Source: a virus. Taken from it: DNA of 64,000 nucleotides. Shown here one piece after another: positions 2-25,706 of the stretch. The translations under genes were made by a program, and so were the position numbers. Positions within the stretch are counted from its first letter, which is position 1. Every line of letters starts with the position of its first letter. The notes under the pieces are model-generated. The model did no database searches, had not been told where the DNA came from, and saw only the letters and a program-made list of their open reading frames with translations. The stretch spans positions 1 to 64,000 of IMG/VR virus record IMGVR_UViG_3300031951_000096. One strand, given 5' to 3'.

Positions 2-337
2 GGAGATGATATAAGGGCCATATTTGATAATAAAGATTACTCCGAAGCAGGAAGGAGAAAGAACATAGAACTTGCTCAACGAATGGCTAAGTTTTTTCAC
101 CACAAAGGTAATGTGGCAATTGTCTCATTAGTTTCTCCTTATAGAGACCAAAGAGAAGCATTTAAAACCGAAATGGGTGAGAATATAAAAGAATTATATG
201 TTCATACTACCGATATAAGGGGTAGAGAATCGTTTCACGTTTCTAACTACGAACCGCCGTTGAAAAACTTTATAGATGTAGATACGACAGATGAGGATGA
301 GTTTACAACATTTCAAAGATTAAAATCACTAATATGA
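2..337 (+). CDS. cysC: Adenylylsulfate kinase (APS kinase), 5' truncated by window edge
   Basis: The frame is open from base 2 and matches the C-terminal two thirds of APS kinase. It reads GDDIRAIF, then SEAGRRKNI, then VSLVSPYRDQR, which correspond to the family blocks DGDNxR, SxxDRxENIRR and ISPYRxxR. The enzyme phosphorylates APS to PAPS, the sulfuryl donor for sulfotransferases, and two sulfotransferase genes lie downstream (5070 and 9007). The Walker A end is outside the window. An internal ATG at 83 would start too late and remove conserved blocks, so it is not the start. The protein ends in KSLI, the tail shared across this cluster. The stop codon overlaps the next ATG (ATGA). Family call is secure; activity cannot be judged without the N-terminus. 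Confidence 0.88.
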   Translation, partial: GDDIRAIFDNKDYSEAGRRKNIELAQRMAKFFHHKGNVAIVSLVSPYRDQREAFKTEMGENIKELYVHTTDIRGRESFHVSNYEPPLKNFIDVDTTDEDEFTTFQRLKSLI

Positions 338-926: not shown

Positions 927-1550
927 ATGAAACCTAGCATTTACATTTGCGGTGATAGTTTTGTAGATTGGGATATGCCTGAAACTCATTGGACTAATTA
1001 TTTATCCAATCACTACAATGTTATTAAGTTAGGAAAATTTGGCGCGGATAATCATTCTATTCTTTATCAAACAGGTTTAATTCCAAAATACGAATATGGT
1101 GATAGATTAGTGATTGTATTTAGTGCACCAGGTAGATTTCCAAGAAGATTTTTTGGGGAAAGAGAAACACATCATCATATAAAATATTTTAATTGGGAAT
1201 GGTATAAAGATAAACAATTTGCAAAAAAATTATTAGAAGTTAGATTATCCGAAACATCACATTGGTTAAATGGTGAAAGAAATAATGAAATACTATTTTT
1301 AAAAAAACTTAAAGAGTTGTATAATGATTTTTCTCCGGTATTTGTGACCTGGAATGAAGATTTTCATAAGATGACTTCTGATTTTGTTGAGTTGATTCAG
1401 GTTACTTCGATTGCAGATGAAGGAGGTGATCCTATGGATTGGCATCCTGGTTGGAAAGGTTGCTATGAATTTTATAAAAAAATGCATACCTTTTTAGATA
1501 TAAAAGATGATTTAGTGGCCTTTCAATCTAAAACAAATAAAATAATATGA
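927..1550 (+). CDS. SGNH/GDSL-like protein
   Basis: This 207-aa protein begins with a strand followed by GDSFVDW (block I of the SGNH hydrolase fold, nucleophile Ser in G-D-S). Near the C-terminus it has DWHPGWKG, where the D-x-H pair expected in block V can be seen. Such enzymes remove acyl groups from sugars or lipids. I chose the ATG at 927 because it directly follows the stop of the previous gene; the upstream in-frame start at 903 would overlap it and places extra residues before the GDS strand. The protein ends NKII. Four more SGNH-like genes occur in the window (10354, 25703, 46796, 47634). Substrate unknown. Confidence 0.65.
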   Translation: MKPSIYICGDSFVDWDMPETHWTNYLSNHYNVIKLGKFGADNHSILYQTGLIPKYEYGDRLVIVFSAPGRFPRRFFGERETHHHIKYFNWEWYKDKQFAKKLLEVRLSETSHWLNGERNNEILFLKKLKELYNDFSPVFVTWNEDFHKMTSDFVELIQVTSIADEGGDPMDWHPGWKGCYEFYKKMHTFLDIKDDLVAFQSKTNKII

Positions 1551-2065
1551 AATTATTGTTAGATGATTTTTTGTATTTAAAATCTCAATTGGAAATAACT
1601 CCATTGATGAATGATGATGAAATTAAGTTCGTAAAATCTGCACATTCTCAACTTTATTCCACATATATTGGAGAAAAAGGGGATGATGTGGCTCTTATTA
1701 CCGAAAATTCTATAATATATTCATTAAAAAACAAAAATCTTAACAACTTTTTATGTGAGAAATTAGAAGAACCCATTGAGTATTTGTATATGATACATAA
1801 ACACATCTATGGTGTAGGTGATTTTGCGAAAAAACATAAAGATAGATATGCAACACATAAAACGGTAAGTATAATTTTATCAGATGAATTTGAGGGAGGG
1901 GATATGTATGTAAATGATAAAAAGATACAATTAAATACAAACGGTGAATATGTAAGTTTCTTTGGTGGTAATGATTTTCATGAAGTAAAGCCGATTACAA
2001 AAGGAAATCGAGAGGTATTAATTGTTTGGTTTTCAAAAAAACAATCAAAATTTTCTTTAATATGA
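1547..2065 (+). CDS. 2OG-Fe(II) oxygenase (prolyl-hydroxylase-like)
   Basis: This 172-aa protein has the double-stranded beta-helix pattern of 2-oxoglutarate/Fe(II) dioxygenases: H97-K-D99, then FEGGDMYV, distal H145 (FHEV) and R155 for 2OG binding. Known relatives hydroxylate prolyl or other residues, or small molecules. The N-terminal 70 residues are not recognisable. The start overlaps the SGNH gene stop (ATGA) and the protein ends FSLI, so it belongs to the coupled cluster. It is one of eight 2OG oxygenases in the window. The substrate cannot be predicted. Confidence 0.82.
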   Translation: MKLLLDDFLYLKSQLEITPLMNDDEIKFVKSAHSQLYSTYIGEKGDDVALITENSIIYSLKNKNLNNFLCEKLEEPIEYLYMIHKHIYGVGDFAKKHKDRYATHKTVSIILSDEFEGGDMYVNDKKIQLNTNGEYVSFFGGNDFHEVKPITKGNREVLIVWFSKKQSKFSLI

Positions 2066-2619
2066 TTGGTAAATTTAAAGTTTTCGAAAATGTATTCTCT
2101 AAAGAAGAATGTAATCAGATACTTAATAAGTGTGTAAATGAATCGGTTTTAAAAATAGCGGAAGTGTATGATAGTAAATTAATGAATAATGTTATTGATG
2201 TTAGTAAAAGAAAATCTAAAGTTGCGGGAATCGATTTGGAAGAACTTAATGATAGAATTATTAAAAAGCTAAAAGAATACTTTGGTATAAAAGGATACAA
2301 TTTCAAAATTTCAAACTATCAATTTACTAAATACCAAAATGGAGATTATTTTAATTGGCACACCGATTCTTCAGATGATGTATATAATCAACGAATTTTA
2401 ACAATTGTAATTCAACTTAACGATGAATATGAAGGAGGTGAATTAGAGTTAGAAATTGATGGTAAGGTATATTCGTTAAAAAAAGGAATAGGTAATTTAT
2501 TTGCATTTTCATCTTTAACTAAACATAGAATTAAAGAAATTAAAAATGGAGTTAGGTATTCAATTGTTAATTGGTTGGAATTAGAAACACAAAAAAATTA
2601 TAAGAAAACATTATTATAA
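2062..2619 (+). CDS. 2OG-Fe(II) oxygenase (PKHD/prolyl 4-hydroxylase-like)
   Basis: This 185-aa protein has a complete facial triad and 2OG site: H100-T-D102, H155 and R165, with the family block NDEYEGGELEL between them. The start at 2062 overlaps the previous stop (ATGA); a longer start at 2026 is possible but would run inside the upstream gene. It is a clear paralogue of the oxygenase at 4501, sharing NKYxxGDFxxWHxDS and IQLNDxYxGGE patterns. It ends KKTLL. The gene after it (2619) is the halogenase, sharing one base, so the two are probably translated together and may act on the same product. Confidence 0.85.
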   Translation: MIGKFKVFENVFSKEECNQILNKCVNESVLKIAEVYDSKLMNNVIDVSKRKSKVAGIDLEELNDRIIKKLKEYFGIKGYNFKISNYQFTKYQNGDYFNWHTDSSDDVYNQRILTIVIQLNDEYEGGELELEIDGKVYSLKKGIGNLFAFSSLTKHRIKEIKNGVRYSIVNWLELETQKNYKKTLL

Positions 2620-3860
2620 TGAAAAAAATAATCATAATCGGAGGTGGGACTGCTGGATGGCTTACTGCTCTAATAGTAAATAAATTTTGGGAAAATACAA
2701 ATGTAACATTGGTAGAAAGTTCCAAAATAGGAATACTAGGAGCGGGCGAAGGAAGCACACCAAACTTCGGTAGAATTTTATCATTATTAGGTATAAATCA
2801 AAAAGATTTTTATGAAAAAACAGGTGCTACAAATAAGCGTGGGCTAAACTTAATAAATTGGCTTGGAGATGGTAGCACAGCAAAACATTTATTTACAGGT
2901 GAAGAGCCAACTGTTTTTACAAAATCATTTGGTTATCATTTTGATGCAAGAAAAGTTGCAGATTACTTTAAACAAATAGCAATAGATAGGGGTGTTAATT
3001 GGATTGATGGGGAAATAGAAACAATTAATAATACAGGTGAGTTTATTAAAAGTTTCAAATTAGTAGATGATAGAATAATTAGTTCTGATTTTGTTTTTGA
3101 CTGTAGTGGATTTAATAGATTAGTTGGAAATCTATTTAATGAGGAATGGGTTGATTATTCAAAATATTTAATGATTAATAGTAGCATTGCATTTTTCCTA
3201 CCTCAAAATAAAAAACTTACAATTAAAGATAAGACATATACAAATATGGTTGCTATGAGTTGTGGGTGGATGTGGCAAATTGAACTACAACACAGATGGG
3301 GATGTGGCTATTCTTTTAATAAAGATTATATAACAGTAGAAGATGCGAAAAAAGAAGTTGAAGACTATTTAGGGCATGAAATAGAAATTCAAAAAGTGTT
3401 TAGTTATAATCCAGGTAGATATAAAAGAAGTTGGATTGGTAACTCTATATCAATAGGATTATCATATGGGTTTATAGAACCATTAGAAGCAACATCGTTG
3501 ATGTCGACTATTATGCAACTTAAAAGATTGGTTGATAAAAACTTTGATGAAAATTATAAAGATGGGTTCAATAAATGGTGTGAAGAAATTAATGAGCAAA
3601 ATATGATGTTTGTTAGATACCACTATTTAGCGGAAAGATTGGATAACAAATTTTGGATTGATGCATATAATAAACCAATTCCAAAAAAATTGAAACAAAT
3701 ACTAGATAAAGATAACAACATTATTATCAAAAACGATAGAGATTTATTGAAATCCTTTGATTTAGTAGAAACTCCACAAAATATGTTGACATTCTTTACA
3801 CACAATTATCAAACTATTTTTAGAAAAAATAAAAAAGTATTAAAAAAAGAATTAATTTAA
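2619..3860 (+). CDS. Flavin-dependent tryptophan-halogenase family protein
   Basis: This 413-aa protein has the full set of signatures of the tryptophan-halogenase family: GGGTAGW at residues 8-14 (FAD binding), GAGEGST at 41-47, the conserved lysine K73 that forms the haloamine, the W-x-W-x-I box (W217, W219, I221) and FIEPLEATS around E290. These enzymes use FADH2 and O2 to make hypohalous acid and halogenate electron-rich aromatics. The protein is shorter than the roughly 500-540 residues of PrnA/RebH, as seen for phage halogenases such as VirX1 of a cyanophage, which iodinates varied small aromatics. The box has Glu where most have Pro (WxWxIE). No flavin reductase is visible nearby, so a host one would be needed. 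Ends KKELI. Confidence 0.9.
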   Translation: MKKIIIIGGGTAGWLTALIVNKFWENTNVTLVESSKIGILGAGEGSTPNFGRILSLLGINQKDFYEKTGATNKRGLNLINWLGDGSTAKHLFTGEEPTVFTKSFGYHFDARKVADYFKQIAIDRGVNWIDGEIETINNTGEFIKSFKLVDDRIISSDFVFDCSGFNRLVGNLFNEEWVDYSKYLMINSSIAFFLPQNKKLTIKDKTYTNMVAMSCGWMWQIELQHRWGCGYSFNKDYITVEDAKKEVEDYLGHEIEIQKVFSYNPGRYKRSWIGNSISIGLSYGFIEPLEATSLMSTIMQLKRLVDKNFDENYKDGFNKWCEEINEQNMMFVRYHYLAERLDNKFWIDAYNKPIPKKLKQILDKDNNIIIKNDRDLLKSFDLVETPQNMLTFFTHNYQTIFRKNKKVLKKELI

Positions 3861-4501
3861 TGGAAAAGTTATATTTTAATGATACCACTTTTATTTGGAA
3901 AACAAAACTAAATAAATTAACCGATAAATCATTATTTCTAAAAGAAGCCTATTCAGTTATTGACTCTCAACCTGGTGTCAAAACTGATGGATTTGGATAT
4001 AAAAAGGAATGGAATAATAATTTAAATTTTATAGGTAAAATTGAGATTAAAAGTAAATTAGATGAAGTTATTCAAAATGGCATAGATTTATGTAAAGAAC
4101 TTTACACTACAAATAACTTACCTTTTAATAAAATTAATATTGATGCTTGGGTAAATGTAGTTAGATCTATAGATCCAATTCAACCAAACTTTTACGATGA
4201 TAATCAAAAGTTTCATATTCATACTGAAATCAATAAAAAAACAAAATCATTTCCACCATCCTATACCTATGTTTATTATATTCAAATGCCAGATGTAATG
4301 AATGGAGAAGATGGTGTATTATATTTTAAAGGTAAAGATGGTCAAGAGTATTGGATTAGACCTGAAGAGGATGATTTAATCATAATGGAAGCAGATATGC
4401 CTCATTCTCCAAACAACGCTCCTAATTCAACTATTGATAGAATAGTATTAGCGGGGAATGTTGGGTTTGAATATATTAAAAAAGAAAAATCAATAATATA
4501 A
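3860..4501 (+). CDS. 2OG-Fe(II) oxygenase-like protein (2OG-FeII_Oxy_5 type)
   Basis: This 213-aa protein resembles the phage 2OG oxygenase subfamily common in marine T4-like phages. It has an N-terminal WxxxL region and INIDAWVNV, then H119-I-H121-T-E123 as the likely metal motif, MPHSP with H182, and DRIVLAGN with R194 for 2OG. The metal acid is Glu rather than Asp if H121/E123 is used. It shares one base with the halogenase stop, suggesting coupled translation. It ends EKSII. Cupin-type proteins are the main alternative, but the spacing favours an oxygenase. Confidence 0.72.
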   Translation: MEKLYFNDTTFIWKTKLNKLTDKSLFLKEAYSVIDSQPGVKTDGFGYKKEWNNNLNFIGKIEIKSKLDEVIQNGIDLCKELYTTNNLPFNKINIDAWVNVVRSIDPIQPNFYDDNQKFHIHTEINKKTKSFPPSYTYVYYIQMPDVMNGEDGVLYFKGKDGQEYWIRPEEDDLIIMEADMPHSPNNAPNSTIDRIVLAGNVGFEYIKKEKSII

Positions 4502-5070
4502 TGTTTGTAAGCTATATTGAAAATTTTTTAAACGAAGATGAATGTATTTCTTTAATTAATTTGGGCAATTCAATTGATTTAATCCAAATGAAATCTTCAA
4601 AATTTGTCAATGGAGAATTAGTTGGTGAAAACCTGGAATATGCAGGTAATAAAAGATTAGGGTGTTATTTTCTCAATGAACAACTTGATTTACCTATTGT
4701 AAAAAGCCTGACAAATAAAATTATTAATTTATCAAATAATTTAAATCCATTTAAAGGAATAGAATACAGCTATATTAAAAAATACTCTTTTAACAAATAT
4801 GGTGTAGGAGATTTTTTAGATTGGCATTCTGACAGTCATGAAATACTAAATGGAGCTACGATTACATTTATAATTCAACTAAATGATGATTATGATGGAG
4901 GTGAAATACAATATAATATAGATAATAACATTTATACGATTAATAAGAAAATAGGTAGCGTTTTTATATTTGATTCTAATATAAGTCACTCTGTCAAAAA
5001 GATAGAAAATAGAAATAGGTATTCCTTAAATGTTTGGCCATCTAAAAATGTTACCAAATCACTATTATAA
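4501..5070 (+). CDS. 2OG-Fe(II) oxygenase, paralogue of the 2062 gene
   Basis: This 189-aa protein has H109-S-D111, the block NDDYDGGEIQY, H163 (ISHSV) and R173 (RYSLNVW). It aligns over most of its length with the oxygenase at 2062, including the N-terminal FLNEDEC / FSKEEC region, so the two probably arose by duplication with divergence toward different substrates or positions. It shares one base with the previous stop and with the next start, and ends TKSLL. Confidence 0.85.
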   Translation: MFVSYIENFLNEDECISLINLGNSIDLIQMKSSKFVNGELVGENLEYAGNKRLGCYFLNEQLDLPIVKSLTNKIINLSNNLNPFKGIEYSYIKKYSFNKYGVGDFLDWHSDSHEILNGATITFIIQLNDDYDGGEIQYNIDNNIYTINKKIGSVFIFDSNISHSVKKIENRNRYSLNVWPSKNVTKSLL

Positions 5071-5858
5071 TGCTAGTAGATAATAAGTTTATATATTTAA
5101 GTTTACCGAGATGTGCATCTACTTCGTTTCACTATTCTTGTATTATAAATAATATTGGCGTAAAAACTAATAATGGTGAATGGGAAGTATCAAATGAACA
5201 TATTGATTTTAATTCAATTGAAAAAGAAGATTTAATGAATCATATATTTCATGGACATGAAACCATTTCAGATTTACAATCTAAATTTGGTATTGATGTT
5301 CCTGTGATAGCGGTTAATAGAGAAAGACATGAGCGTTTCTATTCATTCTACAAACATATGTTATCCGATTTTAAACGATTGGGTTATTTAGATTTTTATG
5401 ATACGTTTTCCCATTTTACTTTGAATGAATTATTTTTTTTCACAAAAGATGATTTAATTAGCAAAAAGACGAGATGGGATAAAATTTCAGATTATCTAAT
5501 TGAATTAAAATTAATTAACCAACCGGTCGATATTAACGTAACTTTATCAAGTAGAAAAAACGAAGAAAATTATTGGAAAGAAAAGAATGGTTATCTGGTT
5601 AATCTAATTGATATCCTATTAACTCCGATTTCTTTTTGGACAAATCATAACCCAAATATAATATGGTTTGAATTTGATAAACTGCAAGATTTAGATAAAT
5701 GGGTATCTGATAAAACTAAAAAACCATTTAAAATACAATATGTAAATTCTAGTAAAAATATAAAAACAAATCTACCATTAGATGACAATTTTGTTGTCAA
5801 ATATAATAGTATTTATGATTACTATGATTTACATAAAACAACTAAAACCTTAATATAA
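5070..5858 (+). CDS. Sulfotransferase-family protein (PAPS-dependent)
   Basis: This 262-aa protein opens with FIYLSLPRCASTSFH (residues 7-21), the 5'-phosphosulfate-binding loop with the P-R-x-x-S-T-S arrangement. VIAVNRERHERFYSFY (79-94) matches the 3'-phosphate-binding block, usually R-x-P-x-x-R-x-x-S-x-Y/F. Such enzymes move the sulfuryl group of PAPS to a hydroxyl or amine of a sugar, tyrosine or small molecule. APS kinase in the same gene run supplies PAPS. The R-x-P of the usual motif is R-E-R here, so substrate or efficiency may differ. The protein ends TKTLI. Confidence 0.78.
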   Translation: MLVDNKFIYLSLPRCASTSFHYSCIINNIGVKTNNGEWEVSNEHIDFNSIEKEDLMNHIFHGHETISDLQSKFGIDVPVIAVNRERHERFYSFYKHMLSDFKRLGYLDFYDTFSHFTLNELFFFTKDDLISKKTRWDKISDYLIELKLINQPVDINVTLSSRKNEENYWKEKNGYLVNLIDILLTPISFWTNHNPNIIWFEFDKLQDLDKWVSDKTKKPFKIQYVNSSKNIKTNLPLDDNFVVKYNSIYDYYDLHKTTKTLI

Positions 5859-5859
5859 A

Positions 5860-6489
5860 ATGCTTTATTCCGACAAAATATATGAAGTTTTTGACGATTT
5901 GCTATCAGTAGATGAGCAAAAAATCTTATATAACTATGCGAACAATAGTGAGATTAAATGGAATGAAACAGAGAATATAACAGGAAATTACGGTGGTAAA
6001 AAAAATACACATAAATTTCCTGCAAAAGTTCATCCTCAAATCGACTGTAAGAACGAACAAATAGATGAGCTAATTAAGAATATACAACGTATTATATCCA
6101 AAAAAATAGGATTAGAATTTGTAACCACTTACAGATGGAAAATTAACCATACATCTCCGTTAAATTATGAGTATAACCCAATTGATTTATTACACTATGA
6201 TAGAATAGCAGAACATATTGCTGCAGTATATTATATTAATGATATAGATGGTGATACGTGTATTTATCGTAATAAATTTGGAGATAACGCAGAGACGTAT
6301 ATGGAAAATTTTGATAATGTAAATTTAGATTCTTTTGAACTATTGACTAAAATTTCTCCAAAAATGGGAAGATGTTTAGTTTTTGATGGGAGATATGCAC
6401 ATCACGCAAATTATCCAACTAAAGGTAGTAGATATATACTTAATTTAAATTTTGTTGCAAAACCCCTAAAAACAAATTCTTTATTATAG
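5860..6489 (+). CDS. 2OG-Fe(II) oxygenase
   Basis: This 209-aa protein has H112-Y-D114 after a long N-terminal half, a strand AAVYYINDIDGDTCIY, H181/H182 (YAHHANYP) and R191 (GSRYILNLNF). This is the HxD...H...R layout of the superfamily, closest in style to phage and hypothetical 2OG proteins that act on unknown acceptors. Between the two metal motifs there is an insertion of about 30 residues (ETYMENFDNV region), not present in the shorter paralogues at 2062 and 4501. It starts one base after the sulfotransferase stop and ends TNSLL. Confidence 0.8.
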   Translation: MLYSDKIYEVFDDLLSVDEQKILYNYANNSEIKWNETENITGNYGGKKNTHKFPAKVHPQIDCKNEQIDELIKNIQRIISKKIGLEFVTTYRWKINHTSPLNYEYNPIDLLHYDRIAEHIAAVYYINDIDGDTCIYRNKFGDNAETYMENFDNVNLDSFELLTKISPKMGRCLVFDGRYAHHANYPTKGSRYILNLNFVAKPLKTNSLL

Positions 6490-6498
6490 TTAATTATT

Positions 6499-6804
6499 AT
6501 GAAAATAAATGGTATTAAATACGATTATAAAGAAATTTTTAATGCATGGATAACTGCCAGAAACCCATCTGATGATGAGAAAAAATTAGCAGAAAGAAGG
6601 TATTCTATTTGTTCAAAATGTGAATTAAAAAAATCCGTCATAAAAAATCAAAAGTGGTCTGAATATTGTAAAGGGTGTGGCTGCCCCCTTAATAAAAAAA
6701 TATTTACTAAAATTTATAATAGCTGTCCACTCCTAAAATGGGAAGAGTGTGATAATGGGTTTATTGAAAAGATAGAGGATAAGCGTGAAAAATCAATAAT
6801 TTAA
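6499..6804 (+). CDS. Small Cys-rich zinc-ribbon-like protein
   Basis: This 101-aa protein has C38-x2-C41 and C57-x2-C60-x-C62, followed by C76 (SCPLLKW) and C84. The two CxxC pairs suggest a zinc ribbon or knuckle that could bind zinc or act in protein contact. I recognise the pattern CSKCELKK...CKGCGCPLNKK from phage hypothetical proteins but know no function. It is the last gene before the only real gap in the first 8 kb and still ends EKSII, although 41 bases separate it from the next start. This shows that the tail is not simply a by-product of stop/start overlap. Confidence 0.7.
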   Translation: MKINGIKYDYKEIFNAWITARNPSDDEKKLAERRYSICSKCELKKSVIKNQKWSEYCKGCGCPLNKKIFTKIYNSCPLLKWEECDNGFIEKIEDKREKSII

Positions 6805-6812
6805 GTTTATAT

Positions 6813-6821
6813 ATATTTATA
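6813..6821 (+). promoter_or_regulatory. Candidate phage late promoter element (ATATTTATA)
   Basis: The only sizeable gap in the first 8 kb carries ATATTTATA 24 bases before the ATG of the ATP-grasp/Hint gene. The same core recurs before structural and other phage genes at 20619, 30809, 42671, 44640 and 46081, with variants at 27620, 37889 and 56886. It does not fit the host TAnnTTTG box. The gp55-like sigma factor encoded at 23292 is a plausible reader. Inference only. Confidence 0.5.
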
Positions 6822-6845: not shown

Positions 6846-8339
6846 ATGAAAGCAATAATATTGGGTTCAGATTTATTGGAATACAATAATGATGTAAAAA
6901 TTTTAGAGATAAATACAAATACAACCATTTATAATCCTGGAGCTGAACTATTGGAATATGATGGGTTATTTGATATGTTAGTTCAGAATAACATATCAGA
7001 ATTTCATTTTATATATACTGAAAGAGATTCCCATTCACCATCTAATGAAAGATATCGATTTAAGGAAAAATTAGTTCAAAAATGTAATGAAAATAACATT
7101 TCTTTTAATGAATACATCGTTCCTTTTAATTCTGTTACGGTACCATATATAGAAGATTCTCCTACTAAATTTATATTAAGACAATCGTATGATACGACAG
7201 CATTGATTGATGACTCGTATTGTGCTGATAAATTTGGATTCTGTGAACTGATGAGCGGTAGCCAATATATACCAAAAACTTATTTTAGTTCATCTGAAGT
7301 TAGTATGGATACATTAAATAATGTTAGTTTTCAAACCAATGGAACACCAAATGTTATAGTAAAAGCACAGGCTCCTAGCTATGATACTGCATTATATCCA
7401 TCAATATATTCATTAGAATCACAATCTCAATTAGATTCATTAAAATCATCGAATACTTCGGAATACCTTATACAAGAATTTTTATATTCAACTGATAATT
7501 TAGTGGATAATAAATATTCTATAATAAGAAGCATTGATGTTATATATGGTAGTAATTTGGAAGTAATCAGTATGGGTGGATATAAGCAATCCACTGTAAT
7601 ACCAATTGATTTTATAGCTAATGAATTTACTGCTGATAGAAAATTAATTCAAAAGAGTAGACAGAAATACATCACAAAGGAAGTTGGTGTGAATCAAAAA
7701 ATTGAAAGTTATCACACCGATATGGACTCTAAAATTATTAATTATACGGGTTCAATTATTAATGCAAGTGATTTACAGATCGGAGATTATATTCGTTCAA
7801 TAGATTTTGTAGATTATAACGATAATCACGCTGCTAATTTTGAAGAAGGTAAATTAAATGTATTTGGATGGAGTGGTAGTTTATCAAAATCCAATGAAAC
7901 CTTACTTCAAACATCATCATCTTTACAAGGAATTATTTCTTCATCAATAGATACAATTTATATAAGGGTAACGACAGCTGATGGTAAAAGTTGGGTAGAT
8001 TCTCCATCGTGTACATACTATATTGAAGAATCCGGCTCAACATCAACAAGATTTGAAAAACTAAACCAAATGTATATTGGTGATAAATTAGTTGTAACCG
8101 ATTCTAATACACAACAATTATCGACATTAGAAATAACTAATTTAGAAATGGAACACGCTCAAATGATGGTTTACGGATTGGATTTCGAGCCATCCGACCT
8201 TTTTTTGGTTGATATCGGAGATGATGTTTTTTCAGTAATGCACAATAGTTGTTATTGTCCGTGGTCATATTGTGGAAACTATTGTTATGACAACACCTGT
8301 TCGGGTTGTGGCGGAGGCGGCCAACCCCCTAAACTTTAA
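6846..8339 (+). CDS. ATP-grasp-like protein with Hint-like C-terminal block and Cys-rich tail
   Basis: This 497-aa protein looks composite. Residues about 105-255 resemble an ATP-grasp ligase: KFILRQSYDTTA, NVIVKAQAP, EYLIQEFL (Q210-E211) and SIIRSIDVIYG. Residues about 300-467 resemble a Hint/intein-type fold: NASDLQIGDYIRSID, MYIGDKLVV, then VYGLDFEPSDLFLV...VMHNSC, similar to intein blocks F and G (VYDLxVE...FxV...VHN-C/S), with H466-N467. I see no block A nucleophile. After HN comes a 30-residue tail (468-497) with six Cys (469, 471, 476, 480, 485, 488), one Trp, three Tyr and a GCGGGG run, ending QPPKL. If the HN site cleaves, a Cys-rich peptide would be freed. The gene has its own late-type promoter motif. 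Domain calls are by eye. Confidence 0.6.
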   Translation: MKAIILGSDLLEYNNDVKILEINTNTTIYNPGAELLEYDGLFDMLVQNNISEFHFIYTERDSHSPSNERYRFKEKLVQKCNENNISFNEYIVPFNSVTVPYIEDSPTKFILRQSYDTTALIDDSYCADKFGFCELMSGSQYIPKTYFSSSEVSMDTLNNVSFQTNGTPNVIVKAQAPSYDTALYPSIYSLESQSQLDSLKSSNTSEYLIQEFLYSTDNLVDNKYSIIRSIDVIYGSNLEVISMGGYKQSTVIPIDFIANEFTADRKLIQKSRQKYITKEVGVNQKIESYHTDMDSKIINYTGSIINASDLQIGDYIRSIDFVDYNDNHAANFEEGKLNVFGWSGSLSKSNETLLQTSSSLQGIISSSIDTIYIRVTTADGKSWVDSPSCTYYIEESGSTSTRFEKLNQMYIGDKLVVTDSNTQQLSTLEITNLEMEHAQMMVYGLDFEPSDLFLVDIGDDVFSVMHNSCYCPWSYCGNYCYDNTCSGCGGGGQPPKL

Positions 8340-8351
8340 AATAATTTAATT

Positions 8352-8489
8352 ATGTCAGATATAAGAATTAATAGACCGATTCAAACGATTAAGCCAAGTA
8401 TTGTAGCTTTATCTAATGATACTAAAGTAAAAGTAAATGCTGCTATTCAAACGGTAGTTAATAAAATTAAAGATAGACATCTAAGTTAA
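8352..8489 (+). CDS. 45-aa protein of unknown function
   Basis: An ATG at 8352 opens 45 codons ending at TAA 8487-8489, filling the space between the ATP-grasp/Hint gene and the next oxygenase, which starts two bases later. It reads MSDIRINRPIQTIKPS at the N-terminus and ends in a basic helix-like stretch (VVNKIKDRHLS). Its placement beside a ligase-like gene within a set of tailoring enzymes makes a small acceptor or precursor peptide thinkable, but it lacks Cys, Trp and Tyr, so it is a poor substrate for halogenation or Tyr sulfation. It does not carry the shared KSLI-type tail. No recognised family. Confidence 0.6.
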   Translation: MSDIRINRPIQTIKPSIVALSNDTKVKVNAAIQTVVNKIKDRHLS

Positions 8490-8491
8490 AT

Positions 8492-9010
8492 ATGTTATAT
8501 CAATCAATCTTATTTTCACAAGAGGAATGTGAATATATTATTGACTTAAAATATAAGTATCCTCTGTTGGGTGATAATGGTAGATGGGATATATTCGATA
8601 ATTTCAAATATAAATTTTATGCACTAGAATTTATAGATGATATAAATTGGATTATAAATAGAATGTGTGATTTTTTTGAAAATGAAACTAAATTAAAAAT
8701 CCATACCCGACCTACAAAATTAAATTTACATCATTATACCATAGGTGATGAATTTGGTAAGCACATAGATACTGGATCACCTTTAAAAGAATGGAATGTA
8801 GGTATTGTTCTTAACGAAAATTTTATGGGAGGGGATTATCTCATTTTTGATGAAAACGATAATCCTATTTATATAAATAAAAAAATTGGTAATGTATGCA
8901 TATATCAATCACAGACACCTCATCAAGTTACTCCCATAACAAGTGGTGAAAGATGGGCGATTGCTATGTTTTTGCATAAATTTAGAATGCAAGAAAAATC
9001 AATTTTATGA
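8492..9010 (+). CDS. 2OG-Fe(II) oxygenase
   Basis: This 172-aa protein has H91-I-D93, FMGGDYLIFDE, H144 (TPHQV) and R154 (GERWAIAMF), a complete 2OG oxygenase active site. The N-terminal FSQEECEYIIDL matches the start of the paralogues at 2062 and 4501 (FSKEEC, FLNEDEC), so it has the same helical entry segment. It is the first recognisable enzyme after the ATP-grasp/Hint gene and the 45-aa protein, which makes those products candidate substrates. It ends EKSIL and overlaps the sulfotransferase start by 4 bases. Confidence 0.84.
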   Translation: MLYQSILFSQEECEYIIDLKYKYPLLGDNGRWDIFDNFKYKFYALEFIDDINWIINRMCDFFENETKLKIHTRPTKLNLHHYTIGDEFGKHIDTGSPLKEWNVGIVLNENFMGGDYLIFDENDNPIYINKKIGNVCIYQSQTPHQVTPITSGERWAIAMFLHKFRMQEKSIL

Positions 9011-9666
9011 AAATTTTAGTTTTGGCTACTCCTAGAAGTGGTTCTACCTCTTTAACTAAATTAATAAATGCACATTTAAATCCGGATTATTCCCTTTTTA
9101 TAGAACCATTTAATCCAAACTTTTATCAATTGTATAAAAACAAAGGATTCGATTTTCAAACTATTATACCATTGCAAAATTGTAATAATCTATTAGTAAA
9201 AACATTACTATTAGTTGAAAATAATGAGTATCCTTTAAAATCTTTTAATAGTTCGAATTCATATTTCGATTGGTGTATATCATTTTTCGATAAAATAATT
9301 TTATTGGATAGAATTGATAAATTAGCACAATCTGAAAGTTTTGCTTTTAATGAAACTATGTTTAGAAAATACGGCATAGATTGGCATACTCCAAAAAAAT
9401 ACAATATAGCAGAAATAGATTCTTTATATATTCAAAATATGGTAGATAGATATACGGCATCCGCTAAATTACTATCTAGTATATCAATCAAATGTGAACA
9501 ACCCATTTTTTATTATGAAGATATATTCGAATCCTATAAAAAGGGTGAGATAGAAAAAATATTTAATTATTTGGAAATAAACTTAATAGATTCATATTAT
9601 AATGAATTTATATTATCTGAAACTAAAAAGGTTAGAATACAAAATACTTTAAATAAGATTATATAA
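9007..9666 (+). CDS. Sulfotransferase-family protein (P-loop TPRSGSTSL type)
   Basis: This 219-aa protein starts with ILVLATPRSGSTSL (residues 3-16), the 5'-phosphosulfate-binding P-loop seen in carbohydrate and Stf0-like sulfotransferases. ILLDRIDKLAQSESF follows at about residues 98-112, where the 3'-phosphate-binding Arg/Ser are expected (R-x5-S). It is clearly different from the sulfotransferase at 5070, so two acceptors or two positions are likely. PAPS would come from the APS kinase at the window start. The protein ends LNKII and its stop shares one base with the next ATG. Confidence 0.82.
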   Translation: MKILVLATPRSGSTSLTKLINAHLNPDYSLFIEPFNPNFYQLYKNKGFDFQTIIPLQNCNNLLVKTLLLVENNEYPLKSFNSSNSYFDWCISFFDKIILLDRIDKLAQSESFAFNETMFRKYGIDWHTPKKYNIAEIDSLYIQNMVDRYTASAKLLSSISIKCEQPIFYYEDIFESYKKGEIEKIFNYLEINLIDSYYNEFILSETKKVRIQNTLNKII

Positions 9667-10352
9667 TGTTTTGTTTTTGCTTTCTTGCATACGGCGATGA
9701 ACATATTAATGAATTTAATATAGTTGCAAAATCTATATTGGATTTAGATAAGGATTTTAAAATAATAGTCGGAACTGATTCTCCTTCAAAAATTATCGAA
9801 GGTGTTTATAGGGTTATAAAATTATCGGAATCATTTAATTACAATTTAAAAAGAATTGTTATTGGGGAGGCTTTGACTGAATTTGATACACTATTTTTTT
9901 TAGATACAGATACATTTATCAAAAGTGATGCGGATTTTTTTATACTGAATCATATAGATGAAGGATTTCATGCATCGAAAATAGTTGGATTGGATGAATT
10001 GAGAGATGTATATGGATCGTTGGAATATATGAAAGATTATTTATCTATTCTTACTACCGTAACCGATGATGCTTTAGAATTGATACATGAAGGTAAATTT
10101 GTTTTGCATATAAAAGATAATGATAAAAAACGTAGTTTTATTCAATGGTGGGAAAAGATTGATAGGCAAACTAGACCTTATCAAAAATTGGCTTACGATT
10201 TACCTGGTGCTATGGAGGGTATTATAATATGGATTGCTGTTAAAAAATCTATGATTGATTTAAAAATTGTAGATAGTGAGCTTAAAACATTATTTGAATC
10301 AATTAAACACTTTGGAAAAGCTAATATAAAACTCAAAAAATCATTGATTTAA
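9666..10352 (+). CDS. Glycosyltransferase-like protein (GT8/DxD type)
   Basis: This 228-aa protein shows a GT-A pattern: an N-terminal strand FCFLAYGDEHI, FKIIVGTDSP, then FDTLFFLDTDTFI with a D80-T-D82 metal/nucleotide-sugar motif. Near the end, AYDLPGAMEGIIIW resembles the acceptor-side region of small GT8-like enzymes. It would transfer a sugar from an NDP-sugar in the cytoplasm. The protein is somewhat shorter than typical GT8 enzymes. It ends KKSLI. The neighbouring RmlC-like gene (11210) suggests that deoxysugar chemistry may be involved. Confidence 0.65.
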   Translation: MFCFCFLAYGDEHINEFNIVAKSILDLDKDFKIIVGTDSPSKIIEGVYRVIKLSESFNYNLKRIVIGEALTEFDTLFFLDTDTFIKSDADFFILNHIDEGFHASKIVGLDELRDVYGSLEYMKDYLSILTTVTDDALELIHEGKFVLHIKDNDKKRSFIQWWEKIDRQTRPYQKLAYDLPGAMEGIIIWIAVKKSMIDLKIVDSELKTLFESIKHFGKANIKLKKSLI

Positions 10353-10353
10353 T

Positions 10354-11205
10354 ATGGAATATTTAACAAATAAAATTCTAAAATACAGATGTGAATTAGA
10401 TGATTTAAATTTAAAACCGAATGAAACTTATGAATATATACCAACTGATTCAAAGGAATTTTGGGATAGGCATATTATTTCAGAACTGGATAAACCCAGT
10501 ATTCAATATTACGAATTAAATCCAATAGAATACAAACTAAATAATGCTGGATTTAGAACTCCGGATGATTTTAATTCATATGATGAAGGTGATGTTTATT
10601 TAGGGTGTTCTCATACATTTGGAATAGGTCATCATTTAGAAAATGTATGGTCTTATAAATTAAGTAAAATATTAGGTCGTAAATTTTGGAATTTGGGAAT
10701 AGGGGGTACAGGAACGGATACCCATTTTAGATTATTATTTGCTTTTTATAAAGAACTTAAAATAAAAAATATATTCCATTATGCGCCATTGTATCCTCGA
10801 TATGAATTTATTGAAAATGGAAGACCTCACTGGTATATTATCGCGAACTATAATAAAAATTGGGAATCTAAATTTGGTAATCTAATGAAAGAGTCTCTTT
10901 TAACTAATGAGCAAGTTGAATTAAATTGGCATAAAAACACTTCGGCGATAAGAGGGTTGGCAAGTGAAATTGGAGCAAATTATTATGTAATTGAAGGTAG
11001 TAGAGGATGGCATGGTAGAGACGATGAATCACTTTTAGCAAGAGATTTATTACATCATACCACAAAATACCATCATTCGGTATATCAAGATTTTTTAAAG
11101 TTATACGATGATAATTTGTATTCTACTTTTAAAGATGTGAATGAACCAATAATGAACATTAAAAAATATATGAAAGATAATTATACTAAAAGTAAGTTAA
11201 TTTAA
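10354..11205 (+). CDS. SGNH-like hydrolase-fold protein
   Basis: This 283-aa protein has VYLGCSHTFGIG at residues 81-92, a variant of SGNH block I with Ser86 as possible nucleophile. NLGIGGTGTDT follows, matching block II/III Gly and Asn/Thr positions, and a C-terminal ARDLLHHTTKYHH provides the D-x-x-H type residues of block V. Such GCSxTxG proteins are frequent in phages and of unknown substrate; O-acyl sugar hydrolysis is the usual idea. The first 60 residues (YEYIPTDSKEFW) are a separate N-terminal region. The protein ends SKLI, the last clear member of the shared-tail set. Confidence 0.6.
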   Translation: MEYLTNKILKYRCELDDLNLKPNETYEYIPTDSKEFWDRHIISELDKPSIQYYELNPIEYKLNNAGFRTPDDFNSYDEGDVYLGCSHTFGIGHHLENVWSYKLSKILGRKFWNLGIGGTGTDTHFRLLFAFYKELKIKNIFHYAPLYPRYEFIENGRPHWYIIANYNKNWESKFGNLMKESLLTNEQVELNWHKNTSAIRGLASEIGANYYVIEGSRGWHGRDDESLLARDLLHHTTKYHHSVYQDFLKLYDDNLYSTFKDVNEPIMNIKKYMKDNYTKSKLI

Positions 11206-11209
11206 AGTT

Positions 11210-11755
11210 ATGAGCAATAAATGGGATGAGTTTCAAGTTTCTCCATCAAAAAAATTTGGATTTGATGTTCCGGTATTTCAACCATCGGTATTCAGAGAGT
11301 ATAGAGGTGAAATATGGACAACATATCATTCGGAACAGCATCCGGTAATGAATCACATACATTATGATAAAAGTGAACTTTCAATACATGGAAGATTTTC
11401 ACGTTCTTACAAAGGTGTATTAAGAGGATTACATTGGGATAAAAAGACTTGGAAATTAGTTCAAGCGGTAGTAGGTGATATATATTTGGTTGTTTTAGAT
11501 ATGAGAGAAGGTTCACCAACTTATGGAGATTGGGAATCATACATTATAACCGAAAGATTGAGAAATCAGGTATTAGTTCCGCCGGGATTTGCAAATGGAC
11601 ATTATGCACTAACCGATTGTATGTTTCACTATAACCTATTTTATAAAGATGGTTATGTGGATGCAGATGAACAATATGTAGTTAAGTGGAATGATCCAGA
11701 GTTTCAAATGGAATGGCCTACAAATAATCCAATATTACAAAAAAGAGATAGATGA
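11210..11755 (+). CDS. dTDP-4-dehydrorhamnose 3,5-epimerase-like (RmlC family) protein
   Basis: This 181-aa protein has the RmlC cupin signatures: SFSRSYKGVLRGLHW-like block (G68-W76, with the catalytic His75 of LRGLHW), VVGDIYLVVLDMREGSPTYG and VPPGFANGHY at 123-132. Y156 sits where the conserved acid/base Tyr lies in family members. The family epimerises C3 and/or C5 of nucleotide-linked 4-keto-6-deoxysugars. No RmlA, RmlB or RmlD is in the window, so the enzyme would have to use host-made sugars. It lacks the shared KSLI-type tail and ends QKRDR, and its stop overlaps the next start (ATGA). Confidence 0.85.
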   Translation: MSNKWDEFQVSPSKKFGFDVPVFQPSVFREYRGEIWTTYHSEQHPVMNHIHYDKSELSIHGRFSRSYKGVLRGLHWDKKTWKLVQAVVGDIYLVVLDMREGSPTYGDWESYIITERLRNQVLVPPGFANGHYALTDCMFHYNLFYKDGYVDADEQYVVKWNDPEFQMEWPTNNPILQKRDR

Positions 11756-12777
11756 TAAAACCTTACATTAAAAACGAATGGGGAAAACTTAAACAAATAA
11801 TTGTAGGAAGACCTGAATTTGCACAAATACCAACCGTTAGAGATAAATCCCTACACACAATTGATTATGCTAATTACACCGATGAACAATTTCTTCGTAT
11901 TCCATATGGAAGATATCCTAATTGGATGATTGAAGAAACAATTGAAGATTTGGATGATTTAAGTAAAACATTAGAGGGGTTAGGGGTAGAAGTATTCAGA
12001 CCCGCTTTAATTGATTGGAGTGAAAAATATGTAACTGAAAATTGGGAAGTAGATGGGTATTATGGATATTGCCCACGAGATTCTATGTTAGTTATAGAAG
12101 ATAAAGTAATTGCTACACCTATGGCTCTCCGTCAAAGACAAAATGAAGCGAGGGCATTTAAACACCTTTTCGATGAAAACCATTGGGTAGATTTTCCTAA
12201 ACCTAAATTATTGGATTCTATTTATGATAGGGGATTGTTACCTGGCCCAACATTAGGGAACGAAGAACCTGTATTTGATGCTGCTAACCTGTTAAAGTGT
12301 AATAACGATATAATCTATTTGGTTTCCAATACCGGTAACTTAGCAGGTGCACAATATTTACAAAAATGGTTGGATGAAAACATGAAAGAAAAGTACAAAG
12401 TTCATCCTATTCAAGATGTATATGCATTCATCCATATTGATACCACTTTCGTGTTGATTAGAGAGGGACTGGTCTTACTTAATCCTAAAAGGGTAAATGA
12501 TACCAATATGCCAGAAGTCTTTCGCAAATGGGATAAAATCTACTCTCCTGAGATGGTTGACACTCCTTTCCTAGAACATTGGGCGGAAGCATCGCCGTGG
12601 TTGGGAATGAACACCCTTTCTTACGATGAAAACACTATGATTGTAGAAGAACGACAAATTCCACTTATGAGAGAATTAAAAAAGTGGGGAGTGGATTCTA
12701 TACCTGTCAAAATGAGACACGCTAGAACTTTTAGTGGAGGCCCTCATTGTGTAACATTAGATACAATTAGAGAATAA
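11752..12777 (+). CDS. Amidinotransferase family protein (glycine / inosamine amidinotransferase-like)
   Basis: This 341-aa protein matches the amidinotransferase fold. It has WGKLKQIIVGRPE at the start, RDSMLVIEDKVI, EPVFDAAN with the conserved Asp, HIDTTFVLI with the catalytic His-Asp region, and GGPHCVT with nucleophile Cys333 near the C-terminus. Known members move the amidino group of arginine to glycine or to amino-inositol and amino-sugar acceptors in antibiotic biosynthesis. Following an RmlC-like gene, an amino-sugar acceptor is a reasonable guess. The gene ends the gapless cluster; a host-type promoter for the next gene follows immediately. Confidence 0.88.
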   Translation: MIKPYIKNEWGKLKQIIVGRPEFAQIPTVRDKSLHTIDYANYTDEQFLRIPYGRYPNWMIEETIEDLDDLSKTLEGLGVEVFRPALIDWSEKYVTENWEVDGYYGYCPRDSMLVIEDKVIATPMALRQRQNEARAFKHLFDENHWVDFPKPKLLDSIYDRGLLPGPTLGNEEPVFDAANLLKCNNDIIYLVSNTGNLAGAQYLQKWLDENMKEKYKVHPIQDVYAFIHIDTTFVLIREGLVLLNPKRVNDTNMPEVFRKWDKIYSPEMVDTPFLEHWAEASPWLGMNTLSYDENTMIVEERQIPLMRELKKWGVDSIPVKMRHARTFSGGPHCVTLDTIRE

Positions 12778-24020: not shown

Positions 24021-25706
24021 ATGATTAGTATAGGAATAAGCTGCTTTTACCACGATAGTTCAGTATGTTTAGTGAAGGATGGGAAGGTAATTTTAGCAGT
24101 AGAGGAAGAAAGATTTAGTGGTATAAAGCATGATAGTTCATTTCCACATAAATCAATAAATTGGATAATGAATGAATCAAAAATAGCCTTTGAAGAAATT
24201 GAAGAGGTTTGTTTTTATGAAAATCCATTAGTAAAAACACATAGAGTTGTTTCAATGTGTTTATCAAATTGGCAAATAAAAGATGCATTTAAATTTGGTG
24301 TAAAGGGGTTAAAACAATATTTGGGTTTAAAGAATCAGTTCAAATTTTTATTTTCAAATGCGGAAATAAAATTTAATTCACATCACGATTCACATATTGG
24401 TTATTCATATTTCACTTCACCATTTGATGAGGCAGCCGTATTAAGTGTAGATGGTGTAGGAGAATGGGAAACTACTGTATTAGCAAAAGCAGAAGGTAAT
24501 GATTGGGAAAAATTAGATTCTACTATTTTCCCACATTCATTAGGTATGTTCTATTCAACCTTTACTGCCTTTTTAGGATTTAAACCAAATGAGGGTGAAT
24601 ATAAGGTAATGGGGTTAGCACCTTATGGAAACCCTCGTACATTTATAGATAAGTTTAGAGAGATTATATACCCATCTAAAAAGGGCATCTATAAATTGAA
24701 TATGAAGATGTTCAATTACCATAAAAGTGATGAGGTAATGTTCACATCAAATCTTTCAACTCATTTAAACCTTCTACCTCGATTACCGAATGAAGAATTA
24801 ACACAACAACATAAAGATTTAGCGGCAACAGTACAATTCATTTATGAAATGTATTTTTTTCGTTTATTAAAAGAATTACATAAGCAAACAAAATGTGATA
24901 ATTTGGTGTTAGGAGGTGGTTGTGCTTATAACGGAACTGCAAACGGAAAAATAAGCAAAAAGACAGGATTTAAAAATGTTTGGATTCCATATTCACCATC
25001 GGATTCGGGTTCTTCAATTGGAGCTTGCCTTAATTCATATTATAGAGGTAAGAACACAGAAAGAAGAAATAATACAAATCCTTATTTAGGGCCAAAATTT
25101 TCAAATGAGTATATTTTCCAATTATTAAAAAATTATAGTAATAAATTAGTATATAAAAAATTATCTGATTATGAAATTATCGATTTGGTATCAACTGAAA
25201 TTTCAAATGGAAAAGTTGTTGGTTGGTTCGAAGGTAGATTGGAGTTGGGAGCTAGAGCATTGGGCCATCGTTCTATTTTTGCTGACCCAAAGAATCCTAC
25301 AATGAAAGGTCGAATCAATCAAATTGTTAAAAAAAGAGAAGGGTTTAGACCATTTGCTCCAATAGTAAAAGATGAGGCTAAAACCTTCTATTTTGAATGG
25401 GATAAAGAAGTCCCTTATATGAATCAAATCGTTTCAGTAAGAAAAGAATATAGAGGTAAATTACCTGCTATTACCCATATTGATGGAACTGCGAGAATAC
25501 AAACATTAAAGAAAACGCAATGTGAAAGGGTGTATGGATTATTGGAAGCATTAGAAAAAAAGAATGGTTATCCAATAGTTTTAAACACATCATTTAATGT
25601 AAAAGACCAAACTATGATTATGAATCCCGAAACTGCAATAAAAACATTTTTGGATATAGGATTAGATATATTGGTAATAGAGAATTATGTTTTGACAAAA
25701 AAATGA
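24021..25706 (+). CDS. Carbamoyltransferase (NodU/CmcH family)
   Basis: This 561-aa protein has both domains of the family. The N-terminal Kae1-like part has ISIGISCFYHDSSVCLV, AVEEERFSGIKHD, FNSHHDSHIGYSYF and LSVDGVGEW. The C-terminal YrdC-like part has GRLELGARALGHRSIFADP, REGFRPFAPIV and VLNTSFNVKDQ. The enzymes transfer a carbamoyl group from carbamoyl phosphate, by way of carbamoyl-AMP, to hydroxyls of sugars or antibiotics. Its overlap with an SGNH-like gene and a possible glycosyltransferase downstream suggests a sugar acceptor. Family call secure; acceptor unknown. Confidence 0.9.
   Translation: MISIGISCFYHDSSVCLVKDGKVILAVEEERFSGIKHDSSFPHKSINWIMNESKIAFEEIEEVCFYENPLVKTHRVVSMCLSNWQIKDAFKFGVKGLKQYLGLKNQFKFLFSNAEIKFNSHHDSHIGYSYFTSPFDEAAVLSVDGVGEWETTVLAKAEGNDWEKLDSTIFPHSLGMFYSTFTAFLGFKPNEGEYKVMGLAPYGNPRTFIDKFREIIYPSKKGIYKLNMKMFNYHKSDEVMFTSNLSTHLNLLPRLPNEELTQQHKDLAATVQFIYEMYFFRLLKELHKQTKCDNLVLGGGCAYNGTANGKISKKTGFKNVWIPYSPSDSGSSIGACLNSYYRGKNTERRNNTNPYLGPKFSNEYIFQLLKNYSNKLVYKKLSDYEIIDLVSTEISNGKVVGWFEGRLELGARALGHRSIFADPKNPTMKGRINQIVKKREGFRPFAPIVKDEAKTFYFEWDKEVPYMNQIVSVRKEYRGKLPAITHIDGTARIQTLKKTQCERVYGLLEALEKKNGYPIVLNTSFNVKDQTMIMNPETAIKTFLDIGLDILVIENYVLTKK

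Follow-up and report, generated by a model that had tools for sequence, protein, structure and literature searches.

The window analysed here, the first 64,000 nucleotides of a 79.7-kb record of an uncultivated virus (IMG/VR record IMGVR_UViG_3300031951_000096), encodes a protein in which an ATP-grasp ligase fold, a Hint domain and a Cys-rich tail are joined in one chain, and this architecture is carried by many uncultured tailed phages. The protein, here called the hub, lies among genes for halogenase-like, 2OG oxygenase and sulfotransferase proteins that end in a common short C-terminal tag. We propose a phage-encoded RiPP-like system in which the precursor peptide is carried on, and released by, the ligase-Hint hub and the enzymes are gathered by the tag, and we regard the chances of this proposal being right as evenly balanced. 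Architecture, folds, conservation, neighbourhood and tag were computed; cleavage, modification, docking and ligation are inferred, and there are no biochemical data.

The hub gene and its relatives

The hub ORF (6846-8339; Table 1) is a real gene whose translation ends in HN-SCYCPWSYCGNYCYDNTCSGCGGGGQPPKL, and the conservation of His466, Asn467 and the tail Cys residues in 61 relatives shows that this pattern is not due to chance. Scans of IMG/VR returned 207 matching stretches for the N-terminal half of the hub and 122 for the Hint half; the best 80 of each were analysed and contain at least 100 distinct hub ORFs. At all loci among the matches listed the N-terminal domain and the Hint-plus-tail portion lie in one ORF, the few exceptions being cuts at contig ends. 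Conservation was assessed in 61 distinct full-length relatives with 51-99% identity to the window hub. An earlier note on this DNA had described a three-part protein with an ATP-grasp-like region, an intein-like end and a Cys-rich tail, a description borne out by the modelled folds and by the joint presence of the parts in at least 100 distinct relatives.

No hub was detected in 84,980 bacterial and archaeal species genomes, which were scanned twice, nor in 50,697 phage records searched by tblastn with the window protein and also with a divergent member as query; the same phage records contain no close match to the window. The full-length hub has no meaningful match in Pfam, PHROGs or PDB sequences. 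The AF2 model of the whole hub is of moderate quality (pLDDT 63.7), and the tail, at a pLDDT of about 30, is not modelled.

Table 1. Features of the hub locus, with position in the window, strand and remarks (C-terminal tags are given with the gene products).
Feature	Position	Strand	Remarks
Tagged 84-aa gene, ..RLKSLI	83..337	+	record starts here
Tagged gene, ..TNKII	927-1550	+	
2OG oxygenase, tag ..KFSLI	1547-2065	+	
Tagged gene, ..KKTLL	2062-2619	+	
Flavin-dependent tryptophan-halogenase-like, tag ..KKELI	2619..3860	+	Pfam PF04820, E 2.7e-84
2OG-Fe(II) oxygenase-like, tag ..KEKSII	3860..4501	+	PF13640, 9.9e-5 (weak); in 37/37 loci
2OG-Fe(II) oxygenase, tag ..TKSLL	4501..5070	+	
Sulfotransferase-like, tag ..TKTLI	5070..5858	+	PRCASTSF motif only, no Pfam call
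2OG-Fe(II) oxygenase-like, tag ..TNSLL	5860..6489	+	
101-aa CxxC protein, tag ..REKSII	6499..6804	+	
TATTTATA promoter-like motif	6814..6821	+	25-32 nt upstream of hub ATG
Hub protein, ATP-grasp - Hint - Cys-rich tail	6846..8339	+	CDS, 497 aa, ATG start
Hub residues 1-288, predicted circularly permuted ATP-grasp of GspS/eukaryotic GSS type	6846..7709	+	AF2 model, VIA-align, conservation
Hub residues 289-467, Hint domain	7710..8246	+	VIA-align, profile alignment to L332 Hint, conservation
Hub junction His466-Asn467-Ser468, predicted scissile bond after Asn467 (8246/8247)	8241..8249	+	invariant HN, free +1
Hub residues 468-497, Cys-rich tail C-x-C-x4-C-x3-C-x4-C-x2-C, lone Lys496 adjoining C-terminus	8247..8336	+	
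45-aa gene, no known family	8352..8489	+	directly downstream of hub
2OG-Fe(II) oxygenase, tag ..QEKSIL	8492..9010	+	
Sulfotransferase, tag ..LNKII	9007..9666	+	Pfam PF00685
Enzyme (family unassigned), tag ..KKSLI	9666..10352	+	
SGNH-like protein, tag ..KSKLI	10354..11205	+	sequence look only

Ligase domain

The AF2 model of residues 1-288, built from 65 sequences, reached a pLDDT of 86.7 and a pTM of 0.82. In VIA-align its best matches were 1m0w (Z 10.0), 7uk8 (YgiC, 9.7) and 2io9 (9.2), and residues 1-281 are collinear with yeast and human glutathione synthetase, E. coli YgiC and YjfC, and glutathionylspermidine synthetase (Z 9.0-10.0, rmsd 4.4-5.2 A, 206-233 aligned residues), whereas the match to the ordinary ATP-grasps TTL, RimK and LysX begins only at about residue 50. 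In circularly permuted ATP-grasps the metal-binding E-x-N strand comes first, and a whole-domain match to GSS/GspS combined with a match to TTL, RimK and LysX from about residue 50 onwards is the signature to be expected of such a permutation. A Z near 10 would be only moderate support if taken alone; here the whole of the modelled domain is covered and the top rows come from one enzyme family.

E21, N23, K173, E211 and R228 are invariant in the 65 sequences, and in the segment D9...E21-I-N23 the D, E and N are invariant in the relatives, with a D-to-E spacing that matches that of GspS. The Mg/ATP residues of the GspS/GSS type (E-x-N, Lys) are present, as assigned by position without a superposed ligand. 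Family-level sequence matches of the domain are weak and of RimK type only (4/61 members, best E 0.057), and a comparison of the N-terminal domain with BFVD gave no significant match. ATP-grasp ligases take part in peptide pathways, and the RimK type is the one used in known RiPP pathways. The ATP-grasp assignment suggested earlier is supported at the level of the fold (Z 9-10), but the type is that of GspS/GSS and not the RimK type of known RiPP pathways. For YgiC and YjfC, PMC12568646 and its reference list give the name peptidylpolyamine synthetases and a peptide-spermidine ligase activity.

Hint domain and predicted C-terminal cleavage

Compared by VIA-align, residues 285-470 of the full-length model resemble inteins, BIL domains and hedgehog, the highest Z being 15.7; for the model range 285-493 the top matches are 6fre (15.7) and the BIL structure 2lwy (15.4). 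A predicted structure without a Hint fold could have refuted the earlier intein/Hint reading, which withstood this comparison. Motif positions and their roles follow PMC4031507. His290, Asp451 in block F, His466 and Asn467 are each 100% conserved in the 61 relatives. At the Cys1 position stands His290 (100%) by profile alignment, or Tyr289 (98%) by the range of the structural alignment. The block B motif T-x-x-H is absent from the 61 relatives, in which the region reads D-x-P-x-[CATS] without a His; the Asp at position 4 of block F (F:4) is lost as well, and position 13 of block F is Asp instead of the usual His. Asp at this last position occurs likewise in a canonical Hint (L332 2351-4012) that we found in the middle of a lectin-like protein of another phage, whose 237-kb record also carries the hub system. 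This canonical Hint has Cys1, a T-E-T-H block B and HN; it aligns with the hub Hint profile at an hhalign E of 2e-6, with its Cys1 opposite the invariant His290. The lectin-like protein that houses it is probably a virion protein.

The residue after HN varies widely among 77 distinct tails (S39 G12 T8 A7 P7 N2 Q2). Of the HN-S/C junction claimed in the earlier note, the invariant HN thus stands, but the +1 residue is not specifically Ser or Cys. Measured against class 1 inteins, the hub has the Hint fold and lacks Cys/Ser at position 1, Cys/Ser/Thr at +1 and the block B T-x-x-H; measured against A-type BIL domains, it has the C-terminal His-Asn with a variable +1 and lacks the N-terminal Cys nucleophile. 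A-type BIL domains end in His-Asn, need no +1 nucleophile and undergo C-terminal cleavage by Asn (PMC7765530). Protein splicing by the hub Hint was considered and rejected, as there is neither Cys1 nor a fixed +1 nucleophile; with a +1 residue that is not specifically Ser or Cys, splicing is unlikely and Asn-cyclisation cleavage alone remains. Given the loss of the residues for the N-terminal acyl shift and the retention of those for Asn cyclisation, we predict C-terminal cleavage only: the hub Hint is in the state expected of a Hint able to cut at its C-end only, although the cleavage itself is inferred and not shown. A Pro at +1 may slow or block Asn cyclisation, and the seven tails with +1 Pro argue against universal efficient cleavage.

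The Cys-rich tail

The window tail contains six Cys and one Trp, as stated before, together with four and not three Tyr. Five of the six Cys are conserved at 100% and the sixth at 98% in the 61 distinct full-length relatives. A search of IMG/VR with a DNA pattern for the tail yielded 88 stretches, and in 88/88 HN directly precedes the tail. Homologues that keep the tail without HN, which would have spoken against a junction, were therefore not found, and the check on the tail Cys pattern and HN had the outcome that both are kept (61 relatives, 77 tails).

The 77 distinct tails measure 25-33 residues (mean 29), contain on average 2.8 Trp and 2.8 Tyr, and follow the consensus x-C-W-C-P-W-x-Y-C-G-x-[WY]-C-x-S-x-Y-C-P-x-C-...-K-[LIV]; position 470 is Trp in 97% of the relatives and Tyr in the window copy. 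The Cys pattern is kept in all 77, with six Cys in 70 tails and eight in seven. One tail (L195) was scored as having five Cys, its sixth lying just beyond the 26 residues counted. Cys 7 and 8 occur both in 7 tails, neither in 71 and singly in none, with at least two changes on the tree, and this joint gain points to pairing by disulfide or metal. A single Lys is present in each of the 77 tails and is the last or penultimate residue in 71 of them; the Lys content of the remainder of the protein would predict 1.4.

In one lineage (L092/L171/L307) the tail Lys leads straight into an S74-like chaperone domain (L171:1114-1410; Pfam E 0.0021, below the family cut-off); S74-like autocleavage would there free the C-end of the tail too. 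An apparent link between Pro472 and the halogenase (29/30 vs 0/6) is not claimed, as most Ser472 tails form one clade on the tree and as L295 and L133 combine Ser472 with a divergent halogenase.

Gene neighbourhood and promoter-like motif

That the hub sits within a halogenase/sulfotransferase cluster, as proposed earlier, is supported by the PF04820 and PF00685 matches and by the conservation of the neighbours in 37 loci with at least 4.5 kb upstream of the hub. Every one of the 37 has the sulfotransferase-like gene (5070) together with one or more 2OG oxygenases; the 101-aa CxxC gene (6499) is present in 35/37 and the halogenase in 30/37. The halogenase is missing from some hub records, one of them 251 kb long, so halogenation is not universal. 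The 45-aa gene has a counterpart of 42-52 residues, 1-63 nt after the hub, in 76/76 distinct readable cases, with the motif ERP..xIK...P[LI]S...K.K...A.Q..V..IK.KHL and without a match in Pfam, PHROG or NCBIfam. Hub and 45-aa gene form a constant core, and the surrounding enzymes vary between loci. As RiPP pathways require, a gene-encoded candidate core peptide adjoins tailoring enzymes. As the record starts at the 84-aa gene, the cluster may extend further.

At its other end the cluster is adjoined by a dTDP-sugar epimerase gene (at 11210) and an arginine-deiminase-like gene (together 11210-12777), and both also follow the cluster in L028, L030 and L088 with 46-88% identity. The window further encodes a Nol-like carbamoyltransferase (24021-25706; PHROG E 1.7e-112), whose enzyme class also appears in a predicted cyanophage cluster for a halogenated metabolite.

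The motif TATTTATA, which is the reverse complement of TATAAATA, lies in the 120 nt preceding the hub in 41/52 distinct relatives. It also precedes the window genes 30836, 37900, 42709 and 44654, the first of which heads the baseplate region and is soon followed by a baseplate wedge gene. Its position before the hub and before a baseplate-region gene hints at late expression. The late-type promoter of the earlier note is partly sustained: the motif recurs upstream of the hub, but the total of TATAAATA in the window does not exceed chance (17 vs 22 expected). On sequence evidence alone we consider TATTTATA a candidate late promoter of the hub-carrying phage group.

A shared C-terminal tag on the cluster enzymes

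The tag has the motif [KN]-x?-[STNKE]-[LI]-[LI] and is summarised as K-x-[ST]-[LI]-[LI]. It ends 14/16 genes between 83 and 11205 in the window, compared with 0/63 elsewhere in the record (p 1e-13). In two other phages the counts for cluster vs elsewhere are 6/12 vs 6/309 and 5/8 vs 4/167, and pooled over the three phages 25/36 vs 10/539 (p 2e-27). Counted by family as distinct C-termini over all loci, the tag is found on the sulfotransferase-like 5070 in 60/60, on the sulfotransferase 9007 in 32/41, on the 2OG genes in 14/14, 25/26, 48/53, 26/32 and 16/19, on the halogenase in 32/37 and on the CxxC protein in 55/62; a neighbouring kinase-like gene carries it in 0/26. Within the cluster of the window, the tag is lacking from the hub, the 45-aa gene and the kinase-like gene. 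In relatives, the tag near the hub extends to GDSL-like proteins, a twitch-domain radical SAM protein, methyltransferases (FkbM and others) and a SET domain. Radical SAM enzymes, FkbM and SET methyltransferases and GDSL-like proteins are typical modifiers of peptides or proteins.

The codons of the tag vary synonymously and its Ser is written with six different codons, which indicates that selection acts on the peptide. A DNA-level artefact of gene junctions was rejected, because the Ser codons come from two blocks and because the 101-aa gene is tagged without abutting its neighbour. No enzyme in the halogenase regions of Pelagibacter phage HTVC008M, P-SSM2 and Syn1 was seen to carry the tag.

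A second scan with the sulfotransferase-like family found the hub in 52/62 new loci, the rest being mostly short fragments. One 31-kb fragment contains a tagged sulfotransferase-like gene (L356:10001-10735) without a hub, which suggests that the tag may serve more than the hub. This gene lies between an SbcC-like gene and a gene for a 1940-aa, probably virion, protein. A similar tag is carried by SGNH/GDSL-like genes far from the cluster in L320 (G020 168514-169251), L325 (G020 265415-266065) and L331 (G018 145607-146251). No PDZ_2 receptor for the tag was found in seven hub-system records, and absence in fragments proves little.

Proposed mechanism and alternative explanations

In the proposed system, the hub would fold, and Asn467 would cyclise and cut the chain after itself. 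The freed product would be a Cys-rich peptide of roughly 29 residues, whose amines are the Lys near the C-end and the new N-terminus, and it would take its fold, either before or after release, from paired Cys that form disulfides or bind a metal cluster. The halogenase, 2OG oxygenases and sulfotransferases may decorate Trp, Tyr, Pro or Asn of the peptide while it is attached or once it is released; such modification of the tail is suggested by the conserved neighbourhood and the enzyme tag, and no chemistry has been shown. The tagged enzymes might assemble on either the hub or the 45-aa partner, both of which are untagged, and the ATP-grasp domain is envisaged to make an amide on the peptide at the Lys, the N-terminus or the C-terminal carboxylate.

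The conserved junction can have another explanation, namely that the Hint has been retired, HN being kept for folding and the tail staying on the ligase as a knob that binds metal or holds disulfides (a substrate arm or carrier, much like the arm of a carrier protein). Cys1, the block B T/H and the F:4 Asp are all lost, 7/77 tails have a Pro at +1 and the tail is always encoded in cis, all of which would suit such a knob. Nevertheless, every loss falls in the N-terminal half of the active site, and both Asn-cyclisation residues stay 100% invariant down to about 43% identity whereas +1 drifts freely, so that we judge a retired Hint to be rather unlikely. Alternatively, the cluster might act on virion proteins, glycans or small metabolites, with the Cys-rich peptide as a separate product or cofactor peptide. 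A 10-gene cyanophage halogenase/2OG cluster has been predicted to serve a halogenated metabolite or polysaccharide decoration (PMC7824862), a sugar enzyme (the epimerase at 11210) adjoins the present cluster, TATTTATA recurs at the head of the baseplate region, and an S74-like domain follows the tail in one lineage. Against such targets stand a hub and 45-aa gene that stay constant while the enzymes around them vary, a repertoire (halogenase, oxygenases, sulfotransferases, radical SAM, SET) that suits peptide or protein modification, and tails rich in Trp and Tyr (mean 2.8 each); we consider them improbable, though not to be dismissed.

The tag, in turn, might be a degron or a localisation signal, recognised at the C-end by a protease or a phage compartment, and not a means of docking to the hub. 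A basic-hydrophobic C-terminus resembles C-end signals generally, and a few tagged genes, SGNH-like ones included, lie outside the cluster, as does the tagged sulfotransferase of the hub-less fragment. The strong restriction of the tag to the cluster and the lack of a PDZ_2 match in seven hub-system records weigh against this, and we hold a degron or localisation signal to be unlikely, if still a serious possibility.

Returning to the self-releasing, tag-served hub, the system may represent a new class of viral ribosomal peptide biosynthesis, with a self-cleaving precursor of ligase, C-end-only Hint and core and with swappable tailoring enzymes recruited by the tag, a claim that we advance only tentatively. 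If it is true, enzyme repertoires could be swapped between phages by adding the tag, and a tag shared by unrelated enzyme families would represent a novel means of putting together a modification line. A Hint stripped to C-terminal cleavage, if confirmed, would be the natural version of a biotechnology tool built by mutation. The hub locus offers a concrete candidate substrate for viral halogenases, and the tag a means of tracing more of the components in uncultured phages.

Comparison with known systems

The single elements are known: Asn-cleaving BIL domains, ATP-grasps of peptide pathways and a cyanophage halogenase/2OG cluster. No description of the fusion, of a C-end-only Hint or of the shared tag was found in the literature searched, which did not cover most subscription journals. 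Viral halogenases such as VirX1 are characterised enzymes. With VirX1 and the cyanophage halogenase/2OG clusters our system shares a phage flavin-dependent halogenase accompanied by 2OG oxygenases; it differs in that no hub was found in the phage collection and no tag was seen on enzymes in the halogenase regions of three such phages. VirX1 itself has been listed without a gene cluster (PMC8407142).

With GspS, YgiC and eukaryotic GSS the hub has in common the fold, the order of elements and an E-x-N near the start of the domain, but it gave only weak RimK-type hits and no match at sequence level to their Pfam/NCBIfam families, and its ligase is fused to a Hint and a peptide. Like A-type BIL domains, the hub possesses a Hint fold, a C-terminal His-Asn and a free +1; in contrast to them, Cys1 is replaced by an invariant His, the block-B His is lost, and the domain sits in one chain between an ATP-grasp ligase and a Cys-rich tail that is never missing. 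RiPP pathways (ATP-grasp graspetides, proteusins with RiPP halogenases, radical-SAM peptides) likewise combine an encoded Cys/Trp/Tyr-rich C-terminal core with clustered tailoring enzymes. However, an entire ligase-Hint protein serves as the 'leader' in the hub system and is predicted to set the core free by its own action, and the tailoring enzymes of this system, so far seen in phages only, carry a common C-terminal tag.
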